Assembly: GCF_025685415.1 (NCBI RefSeq)
Contig: NZ_JAGSYB010000001.1
Location: 3,472,001 to 3,536,000 of the forward strand
Length of the DNA: 64,000 nucleotides
DNA from: Terriglobus aquaticus
GTDB taxonomy: Bacteria; Acidobacteriota; Terriglobia; Terriglobales; Acidobacteriaceae
Reading direction: 5' to 3'
This document shows, one piece after another, positions 41,024 through 47,607 of this stretch. Position 1 is the stretch's first letter. Every line of letters starts with the position of its first letter. The notes under the pieces were generated by a model that worked only from the letters and a program-made list of their open reading frames with translations, was not told the origin of the DNA and did not search any database. A program made the position numbers and the translations under genes.

Positions 41024-42259
41024 TTACTGGACCCGCTCGTAGTGATAGCCACCCTCATCCAGCGCAGCCAGCAGTTCCGCCACCTGCTCAGGACCGCGAG
41101 TCTCCATGGTGATGTCGATCGTCGTGTCGCCCAGGTTCACGCCGTAGTACGACCGGTTGTAGAGCGTGTCCACGATGTTGATGCGGTGCGCTGCAATCAA
41201 CTGGGACAACTCCACCAGCGCACCCGGGCGGTCCAACAGGTGAATGCGCAGCCGAATCAAGCGTCCGTCCTGCACCAGGCCGCGCTCGATCATGCGGCTC
41301 AAGAGCATTACGTCGATGTTGCCACCACACACAAGAACCGCGGTTCGCGCGCCGGTTGGCAGACTCGTCCGCCGCTGCAACAGCGCTGCCAGCGCAGTCG
41401 CACCGGCGCCTTCTGCCAGCATCTTTTCGCGTTCCAGCAGGGTCAGAATCGCGCTGGCGATCTCGTCTTCTTCGACCGTCACAATCTCGTCGACGAACCG
41501 CTCGACCAGCGGCAGCGTCAGCGATCCCGCACGGCGAACCGCAATGCCATCCGCAATGGTCGTCGCGGCTGCCAGTGTTACCGGTGCGTTCTGCGCAACG
41601 GCAGCCTGCATGCTCGGCAGGCGCGCGGTCTGCACGCCAATCACGCGCACGGTCGGCCGCAGCGACTTCACCGCGCAGGCAATGCCGCCGATCAGGCCGC
41701 CCCCGCCGATCGGCACCACCACGGCGTCAAGATCGCTGACCTGCTCCAGAATCTCAAGGCCGATCGTGCCTTGCCCGGCGATCACCTCTGCATCGTCGAA
41801 AGGGTGAATGAACGTCAGACCTTCTGCATCGCGACGCCGCACCGCTTCCGCATACGCCGCGTCGTAGTTCGCGCCGTGCAGCACGACCTCTGCGCCAAAG
41901 CGCCGGGTGGCCGTCACCTTGACCAGCGGCGTTGTTTCCGGCATTACGATCGTCGCGCGGATTCCGCGACGCGTCGCGTGGTACGCAACGCCCTGCGCAT
42001 GATTGCCCGCGCTGGCGGCGATCACGCCGCGGGCGCTCTGCTCCGCTGACAGCGTCAGGATGCGGTTCAGCGCTCCGCGCTCTTTGAACGCGCCAGTCAT
42101 CTGCCGGTTCTCGAGCTTGAGAAAGATTTCCTGGCCGGTCAGGCCGCTCAGGATGGGCGAGCGATCGCATGGCGTGTAGACGACCGAGTCTCGCACACGT
42201 TCGCGCGCGGCCTGGATGTCAGCAAGCGTGACGGCAAGATCTAAGTGTGTTTCAGGCAT
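41024..42259 (-). CDS. ilvA: Threonine ammonia-lyase (threonine dehydratase) with ACT domain
   Basis: 411 aa PLP enzyme. It deaminates threonine to 2-oxobutanoate, the first step toward isoleucine. Lys59 in MTGAFKERGA binds PLP; SAGNHAQGVAYHA and VPIGGGGLIGGIA bind its phosphate. A single C-terminal ACT domain (about 330-411, RIHLLDRPGALVELSQLIAA) could bind a regulatory amino acid; this short form is the TdcB-plus-ACT layout rather than E. coli IlvA with two regulatory repeats. Last gene of the trpB...tyrA operon, 29 nt after tyrA. Confidence 0.92.
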   Translation of the reverse strand: MPETHLDLAVTLADIQAARERVRDSVVYTPCDRSPILSGLTGQEIFLKLENRQMTGAFKERGALNRILTLSAEQSARGVIAASAGNHAQGVAYHATRRGIRATIVMPETTPLVKVTATRRFGAEVVLHGANYDAAYAEAVRRRDAEGLTFIHPFDDAEVIAGQGTIGLEILEQVSDLDAVVVPIGGGGLIGGIACAVKSLRPTVRVIGVQTARLPSMQAAVAQNAPVTLAAATTIADGIAVRRAGSLTLPLVERFVDEIVTVEEDEIASAILTLLEREKMLAEGAGATALAALLQRRTSLPTGARTAVLVCGGNIDVMLLSRMIERGLVQDGRLIRLRIHLLDRPGALVELSQLIAAHRINIVDTLYNRSYYGVNLGDTTIDITMETRGPEQVAELLAALDEGGYHYERVQ

Positions 42260-42288: not shown

Positions 42289-43161
42289 CTAGTGAGTGCG
42301 ACGGAAGTTGTTCGCCTTGGTGAACTCGTCGCGTAGCGCGGGCGTGCGCAGGTTTTCGCGCAAATGCTGCAGCCGCTGCTCCAGCATCAGCAGCGTGTGC
42401 GCCAGCGGAGCTTCATTGGTGCGAGCGATGTCGCGCCACATGCTGAAAGGCGACGATCCCAGGCGGGTCATCTCGCGCAGCGCGCGTCCGCCGATGGCGC
42501 GCAGATCCGGATCATCGCCGAACGTGTCTTCCAGCAGAGCGCTCAGTGCGGTGCTGAGCATCTGCGGCAGGTGGCTGACCCACGCGCAGATCTCGTCGTG
42601 GCGGTCCGCTGGCATGTCGATGATCTTGGAGCCGAAGCGCTCCACCCATCCGCGCCACTCCGTTGTAAGTGCCTGTGACGAGCCCGAGAAGGCAACCGCG
42701 GCGGGCGATGTGTCGGGCGTAAAAATCCACGTGGCCCCGCGAAAGAGTGCGGCTTCCGCCAGCGCCGCACCGCCGCTTTCCTTGCCTGCCATGGGATGGC
42801 CTGGCAGAAAGCGGCCAGGCAGAAGGCGGCGCGCGGTCTCCACAATGTTCAGCTTGGTCGAACCCGCGTCGGTAACTAATTGGCCGTCTTGAATGACGGG
42901 CGCAAGCTGCTCCAGCCATTGCAGGATCGCGAGCACGGGCACGGCGAGCACAACGATGTCGGCACGTTGCACCGCCGCGCGCTGCTTTTCCGGAGACTGC
43001 GCCAGGTGCGTAATGGCGCCGCGATCGAGGGCGGTGCGCAGTTCGTCGGCGCTGCGGTCAATGCCGGTGATCAGGCCAGCAAAACCGGCCTCGCGCAGGG
43101 CGAGGCCGATGGATGCGCCGATAAGGCCGGTGCCGATGATCGTGATTCGCTTCGCCGGCAA
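42289..43161 (-). CDS. tyrA: Prephenate dehydrogenase
   Basis: 290 aa from TTG 43161, chosen because GGAG precedes it at a 7-nt spacing and the protein then begins LPAKRITIIGTGLIGASIGL, the NAD(P) Rossmann motif. It oxidatively decarboxylates prephenate to 4-hydroxyphenylpyruvate for tyrosine. Catalytic-region segments are FLPGHPMAGKESGGAALAEA and ICAWVSHLPQMLSTALSALL. No ACT or chorismate-mutase domain is fused; the mutase is a separate gene upstream in the same operon. Thirteen nt separate it from the dienelactone hydrolase gene. Confidence 0.93.
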   Translation of the reverse strand: MPAKRITIIGTGLIGASIGLALREAGFAGLITGIDRSADELRTALDRGAITHLAQSPEKQRAAVQRADIVVLAVPVLAILQWLEQLAPVIQDGQLVTDAGSTKLNIVETARRLLPGRFLPGHPMAGKESGGAALAEAALFRGATWIFTPDTSPAAVAFSGSSQALTTEWRGWVERFGSKIIDMPADRHDEICAWVSHLPQMLSTALSALLEDTFGDDPDLRAIGGRALREMTRLGSSPFSMWRDIARTNEAPLAHTLLMLEQRLQHLRENLRTPALRDEFTKANNFRRTH

Positions 43162-43174
43162 CGTCTGCTCCTGC

Positions 43175-43861
43175 TTACCCGAAGTGCTGCTCGAGGAAGA
43201 GCAACGTACGCTTGTTGGCCAGCGTTGCGGCCTCAGCGCGGTAATGGTTCGGGTCGACGGAGCGCTCGAAGGCGTGACCCGCCCCTTCGTAGACGAAGAT
43301 TGGCACCTCAGGATGCGCGGTTTGAATCGTGTCGCGCGCGGCCTGCGGGATGTACTCGTCATCCGCGCCGAAGTGCAGGATGACCGGGCACTGCGGCTCT
43401 TCATTTGCGAACTGCGCGATTGCTCCGCCGTAGTAGCCGGCAGCGGCGTCGATCTCAAGCCGAGTCGCGGAGAGGAACGCCATGGTGCCGCCGAAGCAGT
43501 AGCCAACGACGCCTACGGGTGCGTCAGTCTCTGCGCGCAGCCACTCGACGGCGGCCTTCACGTCCTTGGTCTGGTCGACCAGGCCTTCGCTGAACTGCTT
43601 CATCAGGCCGAAGCCCTTCTGAAAATCTTCCTGGTTGTACTCGAGATTCACGTTCTTCTCGATACGGTCGAACATGGCCGGCGCAATGCAAAGATAGCCG
43701 TGCGATGCCCACTCCTCGGTCGACTTCTGGATCTGGCGGTTGACGCCAAAGATCTCCTGCACGACAACCAGCGCGCCTTTCGGCTCGCCGTCTGGCCGCA
43801 CCACGTATGCGGCCAACTCGTTGCCGTCCTCTGCCTTCAACTGCACCCACTCGGTGTTCAT
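43175..43861 (-). CDS. Dienelactone hydrolase family protein
   Basis: 228 aa alpha/beta hydrolase. The nucleophile is Cys122 in VVGYCFGGTMA, with Asp167/168 in HFGADDEYIP and His196 in YEGAGHAFERS completing the dienelactone-hydrolase triad. It is cytoplasmic (no signal). It sits between aroF and tyrA with gaps of 15 and 13 nt, so it is part of the aromatic operon, yet none of the known Phe/Tyr/Trp steps requires it. Substrate unknown. Confidence 0.88.
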   Translation of the reverse strand: MNTEWVQLKAEDGNELAAYVVRPDGEPKGALVVVQEIFGVNRQIQKSTEEWASHGYLCIAPAMFDRIEKNVNLEYNQEDFQKGFGLMKQFSEGLVDQTKDVKAAVEWLRAETDAPVGVVGYCFGGTMAFLSATRLEIDAAAGYYGGAIAQFANEEPQCPVILHFGADDEYIPQAARDTIQTAHPEVPIFVYEGAGHAFERSVDPNHYRAEAATLANKRTLLFLEQHFG

Positions 43862-43876: not shown

Positions 43877-44896
43877 TTACGCTACGTTGCGGCCGACGAC
43901 GGGTGCGAGCTGACGCAGTTGGTCGACAAGCTTGTTGAGCTGGTCGGGGAAGAGCGATTGCGCGCCGTCGCTCATGGCCTTGTCCGGATTTGGATGCATT
44001 TCCATCAAGAGGCCGTCCGCACCGGCGGCGACTGACGCCAGCGCCATGGGCGGAACGAACTCGCGCTTGCCCACGCCGTGCGACGGATCGCCGAAGACGG
44101 GCAGGTGCGTCAGCTTCTTCAGCACAGGGATCGCGCTAATGTCCATGGTGTTGCGCGTGTAGGTCTCAAAGGTGCGAATGCCGCGCTCGCACAACATCAG
44201 GTCGTAGTTGCCGCCGCTCAGGATGTACTCAGCCGAGAGCAAGACCTCTTCGATGGTCGCGCTGATGCCGCGCTTCAGCAGCACGGGTTTACGCACGTGG
44301 CCCAGTTCGCGCAGCAGATTGAAATTCTGCATGTTGCGCGCGCCCACCTGGAAGCAGTCGATGTACGGCAGCATGGGCTCGATCTGCGCGATCTCCATCA
44401 CCTCCGTGATGATGAGCAGGCCGGTAATGTCGCCGACTTCGCGCAGGAGCTTCAGGCCTTCGATGCCCATGCCCTGGAAGCTGTACGGCGAGGAGCGCGG
44501 CTTGAAGGCGCCCCCGCGCAGGAACTGTCCGCCCGCCGCCTTCACCTGCTGTGCGGAGAGCAGAATCTGGTCGCGCGACTCGACCGAGCACGGACCGGCC
44601 ATGATGGTCACCTGGTCGCCGCCAACAACCACGCCGTTGGGAAAGGTGATCTTCGTTCCGTCCGGGCGGAAGGAGCGGCCTGCCAGCTTGTACGGCGAGC
44701 TGATGCGATACGCCTCAAAGACGCCGGGCAGTACCTGGAACTCTGCCACGTCAAACTGCGCGGGCGTACCCACGCCGGCCAGCATCATCTGGCCCGCGCC
44801 GCTGGTGCGGTGCACATCGAAACCCAACTCCACCATGCGCTCAATGACGGCCTGGATGTGCTCGTCGTTGGCGTCCTTCTGCATCACTACGATCAT
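43877..44896 (-). CDS. aroF: 3-deoxy-7-phosphoheptulonate (DAHP) synthase, type I-beta
   Basis: 339 aa. It condenses PEP and erythrose-4-phosphate, the entry step of the shikimate pathway. An N-terminal ferredoxin-like domain of about 70 residues (MIVVMQKDANDEHIQAVIER) precedes the barrel, the layout of the B. subtilis/Thermotoga type. Barrel motifs: VTIMAGPCSVESRDQI, FLRGGAFKPRSSPYSFQGMG, QVGARNMQNFNLLRELG, PVLLKRGISATIEEVL, PVFGDPSHGVGKREFV. The N-terminal domain is the usual site of feedback control. Located 47 nt after the chorismate mutase gene. Confidence 0.95.
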   Translation of the reverse strand: MIVVMQKDANDEHIQAVIERMVELGFDVHRTSGAGQMMLAGVGTPAQFDVAEFQVLPGVFEAYRISSPYKLAGRSFRPDGTKITFPNGVVVGGDQVTIMAGPCSVESRDQILLSAQQVKAAGGQFLRGGAFKPRSSPYSFQGMGIEGLKLLREVGDITGLLIITEVMEIAQIEPMLPYIDCFQVGARNMQNFNLLRELGHVRKPVLLKRGISATIEEVLLSAEYILSGGNYDLMLCERGIRTFETYTRNTMDISAIPVLKKLTHLPVFGDPSHGVGKREFVPPMALASVAAGADGLLMEMHPNPDKAMSDGAQSLFPDQLNKLVDQLRQLAPVVGRNVA

Positions 44897-44943: not shown

Positions 44944-45213
44944 TTACGACTGCGGTGTGCGTTTTTGCAGGGAGCGCATCACGTCCATGATGCGTTCGTA
45001 AATGTCGATCAGGTCTTCGTCCTTCAGCGGACCGCTGTTGACCTGCTTTGCGTGCGCGAAGACGGCCTGCTCGCGGTCTGGCTCATAGATGTTGGCGCCG
45101 GTCTTTTGCTTGATTGCGCCGATCTCTGTGGCAGCCCGGGCGCGCTCGTTCAGCAGCGCCACAATCTGCTCGTCCAGTCCGTCGATCTTCTGCCGCCAGT
45201 CTGCGATTTCCAT
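44944..45213 (-). CDS. aroQ: Chorismate mutase, AroQ class
   Basis: 89 aa, all-helical. It converts chorismate to prephenate. WRQKIDGLDEQIVALLNERA, the Lys-bearing IGAIKQKTGANIYEPDREQA and DLIDIYERIMDVMRSLQK match the three helices of the AroQ fold, with the active-site Arg/Lys residues present. No signal peptide, so it is the cytoplasmic biosynthetic form. In the operon 62 nt after trpA and before aroF, an order in which the mutase and DAHP synthase may associate, as in other bacteria with separate AroQ proteins. Confidence 0.93.
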   Translation of the reverse strand: MEIADWRQKIDGLDEQIVALLNERARAATEIGAIKQKTGANIYEPDREQAVFAHAKQVNSGPLKDEDLIDIYERIMDVMRSLQKRTPQS

Positions 45214-45275: not shown

Positions 45276-46046
45276 TTACGCCGTTCCGCTGCGCAAACCT
45301 TGTACAAACTCGCCAACGCGCTGCGCCTCTGTGCCCGGTTCGCTCTGCTCAATCAGGTGAACGATGGCGGAGCCAATGATGGCGGCGTCGGCGAACTTGC
45401 CGACTGCGGCGACGTGTTCCGCGTTGGAGATGCCGAAGCCTACTGCGATGGGCTTAGTGGTGAACTGGCGCAGGCGGCGGACGAGCGACTCGGCATCAGA
45501 CTCAAGCGCGGCCTGCTTGCCGGTGATACCGACTCGGGAGATGGCGTAGATGAAGCCCTCGCTGTGTTCGGCGATGGCGCGCAGGCGGTCGTCCGGGCTG
45601 GTGGGCGCGGCGAGAAACACGGGGGCGAGGCCGTTTGCGCGCATGTGCCGCAGGTAGTCGGCAGATTCTTCCACGATCATGTCGGTCAGCAGAACGCCGT
45701 CGGCGCCGTGCTCCTTCGCCGCCTTGCAGAAGGCCTCAAGGCCCATGCGGACGACCGGGTTCAGGTAGCTGAAGAGGACGATGCCGGTCTCTGGGCGCGC
45801 CTCGCGGATACGCTTGCTTAGAGCGAGCACATCGTGCAGCGAAACGCCGCGGCCCACGGCACGCTCGCTGGCGCGCTGGATCACGGGGCCGTCGGCGAGC
45901 GGATCGCTGAACGGTACGCCGAGTTCGAGCACGTCGGCACCGTTGTCGATTGCGGCGAGAGCGATGTCGTAGGTGATTTCAATCGACGGATCGCCTGCGG
46001 TGAGATAAACGACGAGTCCTAGCTTGCTTTGAAACTGAATCGACAT
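45276..46046 (-). CDS. trpA: Tryptophan synthase alpha chain
   Basis: 256 aa TIM barrel that cleaves indole-3-glycerol phosphate and passes indole to TrpB. Catalytic Glu41 (VLELGVPFSDPLADGPVIQ) and Asp52 match E. coli Glu49/Asp60. GITGKQAAL and VGFGISNAEHVAAVG bind the substrate phosphate. The N-terminus is slightly short compared with the family. Four nt after trpB, the normal trpBA arrangement; trpE, D, C and F are not in the window. Confidence 0.96.
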   Translation of the reverse strand: MSIQFQSKLGLVVYLTAGDPSIEITYDIALAAIDNGADVLELGVPFSDPLADGPVIQRASERAVGRGVSLHDVLALSKRIREARPETGIVLFSYLNPVVRMGLEAFCKAAKEHGADGVLLTDMIVEESADYLRHMRANGLAPVFLAAPTSPDDRLRAIAEHSEGFIYAISRVGITGKQAALESDAESLVRRLRQFTTKPIAVGFGISNAEHVAAVGKFADAAIIGSAIVHLIEQSEPGTEAQRVGEFVQGLRSGTA

Positions 46047-46050
46047 CGGT

Positions 46051-47304
46051 CTAGCGTGTCCCTTTGTTTTCAGCGGGAGCGTTGCCCAGGTGCAGTTCGC
46101 GGCTAAGGATGCCCATGTCTTTGTCGCCGCGGCCGGAGAGGTTGACCATGATGTTCTGGTCCTTGCTCATCTGCGGTGCCAGCTTCATCGCGTAGGCGAC
46201 GGCGTGGGCGGATTCGAGTGCGGGCAGGATACCTTCGGTGCGGGCGAGCGCCTTGGTGGCTTCGAGTGCCTCGTCGTCGGTAGCGCTGGTGTACTCGGCG
46301 CGTCCGGTGTCGTGCAGGTTGGCGTGCTCGGGGCCGACAGAGGCGTAGTCGAGGCCGGCGGAGACGGAGTGCGTCGAAGCGATCTGGCCCGCGTTGTCCT
46401 GCAGCACATAGCTGTAGGTACCCTGCAGAACTCCCGGCAGGCCGCCGCTGAAGCGCGCGGCGTGGTCGCCCAGCGCGGGGCCGCGGCCACCTGCTTCCAC
46501 GCCGATAAGGCGCACATTCTCGTCGGGGATGAACTCGTAAAACGCGCCGATGGCGTTCGATCCACCACCCACACAGGCGACGACGGCGTCGGGGTTGCGG
46601 CCCACCTGCTCGGCGAACTGGCGCTTGGCTTCCTTGCTGATTACGCGATGGAAGTCGCGCACCATGGTCGGGTAGGGGTGCGATCCGAGTGCCGAGCCCA
46701 GGATGTAGAACGTGGTGCGGACGTTGGTGACCCAGTCGCGCATGGCCTCGTTGATCGCGTCCTTCAGCGTGGCGGATCCCGCGCCAACGCCGCGCACATC
46801 GGCACCGAGGAGGCGCATGCGGTAGACGTTCAGCTCCTGTCGGCGCATGTCTTCCTCGCCCATGTAGATGACGCATTCCAGGCCGAACAGAGCGCACACG
46901 GTGGCGGTGGCCACGCCGTGCTGGCCCGCGCCCGTTTCCGCGATGATGCGCTGCTTGCCCATGCGGCGCGCCAGCAGGGCCTGGCCTAGCGCGTTATTGA
47001 TCTTGTGCGCGCCGGTGTGCAGCAGGTCTTCGCGCTTCAGCCAGATCTTCGCTCCGCCAAGCTGCTCGCTCATCCGCTTCGCGTAATACAGCGGCGTGGG
47101 GCGGCCCACGTAATGGGTGAGCAGGTCATTCAGCTCGGCGTGGAACTTCGCGTCCGCCTGCACCTCCACGTAGGCCTGCTCCAATTCGAGCAGCGCGGCC
47201 ATCAACGTTTCGGGAACGTAGCGGCCTCCGTAGGCGCCAAAGCGCCCGGTGCCTAACGACCGCGTGACTTCCGAGGCGGGTTCAAGAAGGTCGAGTGTCG
47301 GCAT
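46051..47304 (-). CDS. trpB: Tryptophan synthase beta chain
   Basis: 417 aa PLP enzyme, TrpB1 type, joining indole and serine to tryptophan. Lys101 in [19 protein letters not shown] is the PLP lysine; [20 protein letters not shown] and [15 protein letters not shown] are the other signatures, and [20 protein letters not shown] is the classical opening. First structural gene of the aromatic operon. AGGAG lies 12 nt before the ATG, immediately after an attenuator-like hairpin. The 121 nt upstream separate it from the leader peptide. Confidence 0.97.
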
Positions 47305-47319
47305 GGTGAAGAAAGCTCC

Positions 47320-47351
47320 TGAAACACAAAGCGCGACCTTGTGGGGTCGCG
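47320..47351 (-). terminator. Attenuator terminator candidate before trpB
   Basis: On the minus strand CGCGACC-CCACAA-GGTCGCG (7-bp perfect stem, 47332-47351) is followed by CTTTGTGTTTC, a weak U-rich tail, just upstream of the trpB ribosome site. Between it and the leader peptide a second hairpin TGAGGC...GCCTCA (47376-47398) occurs. A clean antiterminator pairing is not obvious by eye. Confidence 0.5.
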
Positions 47352-47424
47352 GTGCGGGTGAAACCTGATCTCGGGTGAGGCTGTTCGGTGCTGCCTCAGA
47401 GTGAGAGCGTGTTCGCCGGCGCCG

Positions 47425-47478
47425 CTACTGAAACCAGTAGCGGTAGGTAAAGCGCCAGAAGTACGAAACACGTGCCAT
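47425..47478 (-). CDS. Aromatic-residue leader peptide of the trp/aromatic operon
   Basis: A 17-codon frame on the minus strand, ATG at 47478 to TAG at 47425, encodes MARVSYFWRFTYRYWFQ: two Trp, three Tyr and three Phe among the last twelve residues. It ends 120 nt before trpB. The final codons lie in a perfect hairpin CCGCTACT-GGTTTC-AGTAGCGG (47422-47443), so ribosome position would decide folding. This is the layout of transcription-attenuation leader peptides (TrpL, PheL), here with codons for all three aromatic amino acids, matching an operon that makes all three. No strong ribosome site is visible upstream. Below the size of usual gene calls. Confidence 0.65.
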   Translation of the reverse strand: MARVSYFWRFTYRYWFQ

Positions 47479-47607
47479 GTGGGAACAGCGTACCGCACTT
47501 TCTCTGCAATGGGAAGCAAACCTGCGCCAAGCGACGCCATCCATTGTTCACGAATCGTTCGCCGGAGCCCATCCCCAGGGTGCAGCCGGGCGAACAGGAG
47601 ACAGGAC

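Follow-up and report, generated by a model that had tools for sequence, protein, structure and literature searches.

A predicted transcription attenuator with a Phe/Tyr/Trp leader peptide upstream of trpB in an acidobacterial genome, and its family of related leaders

Transcription attenuation governed by a translating ribosome is a textbook mechanism, and in the trpL leader of E. coli it combines an upstream open reading frame (uORF) carrying control codons with three helices, 1:2, 2:3 and 3:4, in which a ribosome at the stop codon blocks region 2. The ilvGMEDA and thr leaders of E. coli mix branched-chain or Thr/Ile codons, and the enterobacterial pheA and pheST leaders are Phe-rich, precede Phe genes and read mainly a single control amino acid. 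The leader described here lies upstream of trpB in a window of 64,000 nucleotides (the whole stretch of DNA that was analysed) from Terriglobus aquaticus. It shares with trpL the control-codon uORF, the three helices and the predicted blocking of region 2 at the stop; however, its codons cover three aromatic amino acids, not just Trp, it is probably leaderless, and has trpB as its first gene. As in ilvGMEDA and thr, several related amino acids would be read by one leader, but here the set is aromatic, the phylum is another, several pathway genes are preceded and the codon sets differ; the likeness to pheA and pheST lies in a Phe-rich leader before Phe genes. The initial annotation of this DNA had contrasted its three-residue mix with classical leaders, said to carry one control amino acid; the mix is borne out, but mixed leaders are familiar elsewhere.

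Excerpts of PMC7298713 describe the trpL/rnTrpL attenuator RNA of Sinorhizobium meliloti as having the ATG of the leader peptide frame at its 5' end, a property predicted for the present leader too, whereas that Trp leader has 14 residues, belongs to the Alphaproteobacteria and has trans-acting roles, one of them reported for peTrpL. In Acholeplasma the uORFC-13-1 motif precedes aroF and, as outlined in part of PMC8632094, likewise places a predicted uORF ahead of a terminator and DAHP synthase, but it has a ribosome site, is described as a Phe element only, comes from another phylum and has a single target gene. A general attenuation model is given in the portion of PMC1183508 drawn on here, and in the relevant section of a 2010 survey (PMC2965389) almost no predicted attenuators in the phylum had a function. 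Within the parts of the open full-text literature covered, with most subscription papers and the proteobacterial surveys cited in PMC1262725 outside that scope, neither a leader mixing Phe, Tyr and Trp nor an aromatic attenuator from Acidobacteria was found. The mechanism is known; what is new is that aromatic codons are combined, and how the combination relates to the gene behind the leader.

The initial annotation had proposed a 17-codon Trp/Tyr/Phe frame, a hairpin holding its last codons and stop, a TGAGGC/GCCTCA hairpin and a 7-bp stem with a U-rich tail before trpB. The frame was confirmed at 47478-47425 on the minus strand and all of the structures were located, as follows:

47510..47515, minus strand, weak -35 candidate TTCCCA with a 17-nt spacer, read from the sequence
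47487..47492, minus strand, -10-like box TACGCT, its 3' end 8 nt 5' of the ATG
47425..47478, minus strand, leader uORF MARVSYFWRFTYRYWFQ, 17 codons, ATG at 47478, stop TAG at 47427-47425
47434..47451, minus strand, control codons F10 T11 Y12 R13 Y14 W15, columns -2 to +3
47418..47456, minus strand, 1:2 hairpin, inner helix CCGCTACTG/CAGTAGCGG, outer helix GGCGC/GCGCC
47421..47425, minus strand, region 2 core GCGGC, the 5' half of the antiterminator core, invariant in 20 genus leaders
47376..47398, minus strand, middle hairpin TGAGGC (47398-47393) / GCCTCA (47381-47376)
47345..47352, minus strand, region 3, the terminator 5' arm and alternative partner of region 2
47332..47351, minus strand, terminator stem-loop CGCGACC-CCACAA-GGTCGCG with a 7-bp stem
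47321..47331, minus strand, U-rich tail CTTTGTGTTTC, modest and interrupted
47316..47320, minus strand, AGGAG, likely trpB ribosome site, read from the sequence

The inner hairpin, CCGCTACTG-gttt-CAGTAGCGG (47443-47422, minus strand), encloses the final uORF codons and the stop. An antiterminator, which had not been obvious by eye, does exist: GCGGC in the uORF pairs with the terminator 5' arm, as GCGG/CCGC in the window and as GCGGC/GCCGC in 19/20 genus leaders (one with a G-U). It forms a long arm in which GCGGC/GCCGC is followed by short helices, e.g., GGAA/TTCC and TCTC/GAGA, with a variable hairpin at the tip; the middle hairpin lies within this arm and differs in sequence between relatives. 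The window copy is atypical in that its region 3 reads CACC (CACCGC) where relatives have AGCC (AGCCGC), and in its interrupted U-run, which agrees with the modest tail first described. Folding of the leader was better than in dinucleotide shuffles on the minus strand (z -3.0, 0/200 equally good), but the plus strand folds nearly as well (z -2.8, 2/200 as good); since both strands beat shuffles, folding energy alone is weak evidence and was set aside.

Downstream of the leader lies the following row of genes:

46051..47304, minus strand, trpB, ATG at 47304 (TIGR00263 above cut-off)
45276..46046, minus strand, trpA (TIGR00262 above cut-off)
44944..45213, minus strand, chorismate mutase (TIGR01807 above cut-off)
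43877..44896, minus strand, DAHP synthase (PF00793; TIGR01361 above cut-off)
43175-43861, minus strand, hydrolase-like gene between DAHP synthase and prephenate dehydrogenase, whose sole match, the YghX family, is weak and below cut-off
42289..43506, minus strand, prephenate dehydrogenase frame, tyrA (PF02153 and PF20463)
41024-42259, minus strand, threonine ammonia-lyase with an ACT domain, last of the row

The true start of tyrA is probably further downstream, as homology starts near residue 119. The spacing of the genes from trpB onwards suggests a single transcript, and the predicted leader ORF carries codons for products of the pathway.

The strong evidence for the element is comparative. 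An aromatic uORF was found upstream of trpB in 19/19 genomes of the genus, all of which possess trpB, and its first base lies 169-262 nt upstream of where the TrpB alignment starts. All 20 genus leader peptides contain Phe, Tyr and Trp; in the alignments the ATG comes soon after a TA box, GCGGC is invariant inside the uORF, and its complement AGCCGC is near-invariant at the terminator 5' arm, the window being the deviating copy. Among 95 related leaders, read as far as region 2, aromatic residues make up 39.3% in the frame of the uORF, vs 5.6% and 12.1% in the other frames. The twentieth leader (L060, G003:C23:4-1318) precedes a second trpB fragment in one genus genome, to be explained by duplication or by mixing in the assembly.

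The element at trpB is one of two that a covariance model detects in the genome and a member of a class-wide family. A covariance model built from the 20 genus leaders (model 1) gave matches in 132/300 family genomes at E up to 0.01, and the second copy in the window genome (L092, G000:C1:1725024-1725179, peptide MAVQFTFASFAYRYWWPVAAQATVARNDCHTQ) lies upstream of shikimate kinase; in second copies from 17 genus genomes, the first recognised gene was aroK in 17/17. The ORF checked after shikimate kinase at L092 encodes an AI-2E family transporter. A model rebuilt on 60 leaders (model 2) matched 117/349 class genomes at E up to 0.001 and 30/297 phylum genomes at E up to 1e-6, both draws including the genus. 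Four of these 30 genomes lie outside the class, and all four matches have aromatic uORFs: L175 (...RFYFYFYF...) and L177 (...FYFAFTYRFFF...) precede prephenate dehydratase, L176 (MTHSRRFFPFSFRTSG..., Phe only) precedes a chorismate mutase-prephenate dehydratase protein, and L178 (MNTGRQYFYFYYFYLK; YFYFYYFY, Phe and Tyr only) precedes DAHP synthase, each gene being confirmed by Pfam. The first recognised gene after the 95 leaders was trpB in 33, aroK in 25, DAHP synthase in 23 and chorismate mutase in 14.

Overall, an aromatic uORF was present in 138/144 examined model matches, the 20 training leaders included (95/96, 0/4, 39/40 and, outside the class, 4/4). The four third matches, L154-157 (E 3e-6 to 4e-5), had neither an aromatic uORF nor a target gene and were rejected, as was L152 (5e-6, stretch cut at a contig end) for the same lack; genuine leaders L151 and L153 occur at similar E, so the cut-off is not clean and the tallies at loose cut-offs (132/300 and 117/349) include some false matches. 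No such leader was seen in the 400 nt upstream of trpB at 40 non-genus loci among the first 61 genomes; aromatic ORFs upstream of trpB in other genera at L027 and L051 proved unrelated to the leader, and trpB leaders in other genera surfaced later via the covariance model. In the window genome, the ~560 nt upstream of trpE and pheA, with gene starts set by eye, held no comparable leader; the ORFs listed there were dissimilar, none having more than 4 aromatic residues in 12. When named genomes were scanned by pattern, a single locus came up, in an Acidobacteria gp1 MAG. At gathering scores no Rfam family, Trp_leader for one, was matched in the window, nor was any matched in seven leader loci with E allowed up to 0.1, and the T-box riboswitch covariance model matched neither the window nor the seven loci.

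To characterise the helices, paired and changed cells were counted in the 20 genus leaders. The 3:4 terminator had 90.9% of cells paired and 11 two-sided changed cells (shuffle mean 4.0), the 2:3 antiterminator 80.0% and 17 (shuffle mean 7.5), and the 1:2 hairpin 81.8% and 14 (shuffle mean 4.4); helices slid by 1-3 columns were only 20-60% paired. In 60 leaders, whose alignment had been adjusted to the structure, 85 two-sided cells were counted over 1:2 and 3:4 combined, vs 35.4 in shuffles. The covariation of the antiterminator is mixed: its number of pairs with two-sided change did not exceed shuffles in the 20 leaders (4 vs 3.3, 186/500), sliding it by +1 gave 16 two-sided cells vs 17 unslid, and further pair types were not above shuffles for either 2:3 or 3:4 in these leaders; the percentage paired, the covariation score and the invariant core speak for it. 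As judged from structure prediction and pair counts, the three helices would be mutually exclusive.

The initial annotation had listed the want of a strong ribosome site before the uORF as a weak point. Shine-Dalgarno-like words are indeed scarce there, preceding the uORF in 4/82 non-redundant leaders drawn from the 95 (shuffle mean 7.7), but this fits a leaderless uORF. At 71/82 of the main genes at least one candidate start is preceded by such a word, though this was counted loosely, with more than one start permitted per gene. Furthermore, 58/82 leaders (shuffle mean 6.8, sd 2.5) have a TAnnnT box whose end lies 6-12 nt ahead of the start codon, 9-10 nt being the commonest distance, and this spacing together with the scarcity of Shine-Dalgarno words is the pattern expected from a transcript that begins at the AUG or right beside it. 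A sigma-70 consensus scan found no promoter in the window leader. The uORF is probably leaderless, its transcript starting at or adjoining the AUG.

The effect of a stalled ribosome was computed for the 95 leaders as the chance that the terminator 5' arm is paired with region 2 while the 3' arm has yet to be made, the RNA being masked to 10 nt beyond the A-site codon, an assumed footprint. The mean probability of the antiterminator was 0.48-0.72 with the A site at columns -8 to -3, 0.83-0.84 at -2 to +2, 0.70 at +3, 0.22 at +4, and no more than 0.05 from +5 onwards. When the ribosome was placed at the stop, the antiterminator exceeded 0.5 in 0/95 leaders and the terminator in 92/95; with no ribosome, the antiterminator exceeded 0.5 in 29/95. 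As computed, stalling at the control codons would free region 2 and a ribosome at the stop would block it. In the full transcript at equilibrium the terminator was favoured even when the ribosome was stalled (0.66-0.81 at columns -2 to +3); because equilibrium favours it at every position, the switch model needs co-transcriptional trapping. Outside the class, L175 reached 0.83 and L177 0.82, L176 never exceeded 0.28, and L178 was left out since its region 2 is unaligned.

In the proposed mechanism, RNA polymerase would start at or adjoining the uORF AUG, and a ribosome would load onto the leaderless RNA and translate the aromatic codons. When a cognate aminoacyl-tRNA is short, the ribosome would stall over region 1, leaving region 2 free to pair with region 3; the 2:3 antiterminator would preclude the terminator, and trpBA-chorismate mutase-DAHP synthase-tyrA would be transcribed. 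Under good supply the ribosome would reach the stop, its footprint would cover region 2, and 3:4 would form, ending transcription before trpB. If translation fails, 1:2 would hold region 2 in most leaders, including that of the window, making termination the default. The start site, termination, amino acid response and operon co-transcription are elements that we infer. The conserved uORF, the exclusive helices, the control codons placed in the permissive stretch and the recurrence before aromatic genes point to a ribosome-mediated transcription attenuator sensing aromatic aminoacyl-tRNAs, which on sequence and modelling grounds is very probably what the leader is. This agrees with the reading first offered: the peptide, stems, antiterminator and terminator recur in the homologues, so that a conserved aromatic frame and stem do exist there.

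It is conceivable that the uORF and its structures instead govern ribosome access to trpB, or reinitiation there, and leave transcription untouched. Such translational coupling would draw on the position of the window terminator stem, which ends just 11 nt 5' of AGGAG, and on the interrupted U-run; however, the ribosome site lies outside that stem, at least 4 T occur within 9 nt of the last stem base after 95/95 3:4 stems, and in the 20 genus leaders anything between 18 and 105 nt separates the terminator from the start of the TrpB alignment. Coupling is a highly unlikely explanation. An intrinsic terminator is predicted before the first gene, with an interrupted U-run in the window copy, in keeping with transcription attenuation.

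The control codons of the attenuator were then considered by column. Aromatic residues occupy columns -2, 0, +2 and +3 in 89, 88, 88 and 66% of the 95 leaders, respectively, and the conserved Phe, Tyr and Trp codons coincide with the A-site columns that most favour the antiterminator, -2 to +3; column +4 is aromatic in 61% despite lying at the edge of the permissive stretch. Phe stands at column -2 in 84/95 leaders and Trp at +3 in 58/95. A leader that senses Trp only, with Phe and Tyr codons as decoration or by-products of RNA structure, would be in line with trpB as the first gene, with Trp in every trpB-preceding leader (33/33 in the first set, 4/4 held out), and with conserved Arg and Ala codons in the hairpins, which imply that conservation of the peptide is partly driven by the RNA. 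Yet Tyr and Phe replace one another at columns 0 (58 Tyr, 25 Phe) and +2 (63 and 21 of 95), keeping an aromatic residue despite the base change, and chorismate mutase/pheA leaders retain Phe and Tyr, mostly without Trp. Moreover, the modelled probability of the antiterminator in the window is 0.83 at F10, Y12 and Y14, 0.48 at W15 and 0.28 at W8, so that the Phe and Tyr codons appear better placed than the Trp codons, with a clear modelled effect against a weak one. A Trp-only sensor is about as improbable as coupling to trpB translation. In two of the 33 trpB leaders (L002 and L005) no Trp codon exceeds 0.5.

The codons were also compared with the target gene. All three aromatic residues occur in 33/33 trpB-first, 25/25 aroK-first, 19/23 DAHP synthase-first and 1/14 chorismate mutase-first leaders, and Trp itself in 79/81 of the trpB/aroK/DAHP synthase-first leaders vs 1/14 chorismate mutase-first ones. 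The prediction concerning Trp was formed on these 95 leaders and fixed before 40 further matches were fetched, among which Trp was found in 6/21 chorismate mutase/pheA-first leaders vs 17/19 others (Fisher p 1.2e-4, uncorrected for kinship). Combined, the counts are 7/35 chorismate mutase/pheA-first vs 96/100 trpB/aroK/DAHP synthase-first, among leaders that are related and with phylogeny uncorrected; the association holds as a tendency, not a rule. Exceptions in the first set are L144, which has Trp although chorismate mutase comes first, and two DAHP synthase-first leaders without Trp (L147 and L167); held out, they are L183, L188, L190, L191, L192 and L200, with Trp before chorismate mutase/pheA, and L194 (no credible uORF) and L216, without Trp before other genes. 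L178, outside the class, is a further exception, and L201 was scored as DAHP synthase-first although its uORF resembles that of L188, which is chorismate mutase-first. A refinement made after the held-out test was restricted to those Trp codons that are effective in the stall model, giving 0/14 vs 64/81 in the first set and 3/21 vs 17/19 held out.

By family, Trp in the first set was found before chorismate mutase vs other genes in 0/5 vs 69/70 (f1), 1/6 vs 5/6 (f7, where the two target types sit in different genera) and 0/2 vs 4/4 (f5). Prephenate dehydratase follows chorismate mutase in 3/3 Pfam-checked operons and in 15/20 held-out operons, two of the five without it (L192 and L198) having under 1 kb of sequence; at L163, where Trp is present, DAHP synthase comes first and prephenate dehydratase next. 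Since chorismate mutase operons often also carry DAHP synthase, the codons are linked to the first gene and not to the whole operon. The family would supply a function for attenuators of this phylum and provides a natural series, mostly Phe and Tyr before chorismate mutase/pheA, and Phe, Tyr and Trp before trpB, aroK and mostly DAHP synthase, with which to ask how three amino acids are integrated by one leader and in what way sensitivity is set by which codons are used and where; the leader is also a likely leaderless test case.

TnaC is a nascent-peptide arrest sensor, and on that model FT[YF]R[YF]W could arrest the ribosome and sense a free amino acid, as Thr at column -1 in 61/95 leaders, with a varying third base and outside the modelled helices, might suggest; but a constraint on the RNA could account for the AC of the Thr codon, and two leaders from outside the class lack the motif, having Phe/Tyr alternations (RFYFYFYF and YFYFYYFY), which leaves this the least probable of the explanations. 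A bolder view, in which FT[YF]R[YF]W is selected beyond its codons and the nascent or released peptide acts, by arrest or in trans as reported for peTrpL, as a further layer above a phylum-wide regulon of aromatic attenuation with codon sets retuned for each target, is unlikely, if less remote than the rivals above. For aminoacyl-tRNA sensing, codon choice may itself matter: the Phe codon at column -2 (47449-47451 in the window) is TTT in 83/84 leaders with Phe there, and Phe codons in nine window ORFs (five identified genes of the row and four unverified ORFs, the window genome only) comprise 31 TTT and 88 TTC. According to the part of PMC1183508 that treats the theory, the sensitivity of an attenuator depends on the choice of regulatory codon; the preference for TTT as a slow synonymous codon would fit this theory, or it may reflect an RNA constraint on TTTAC.
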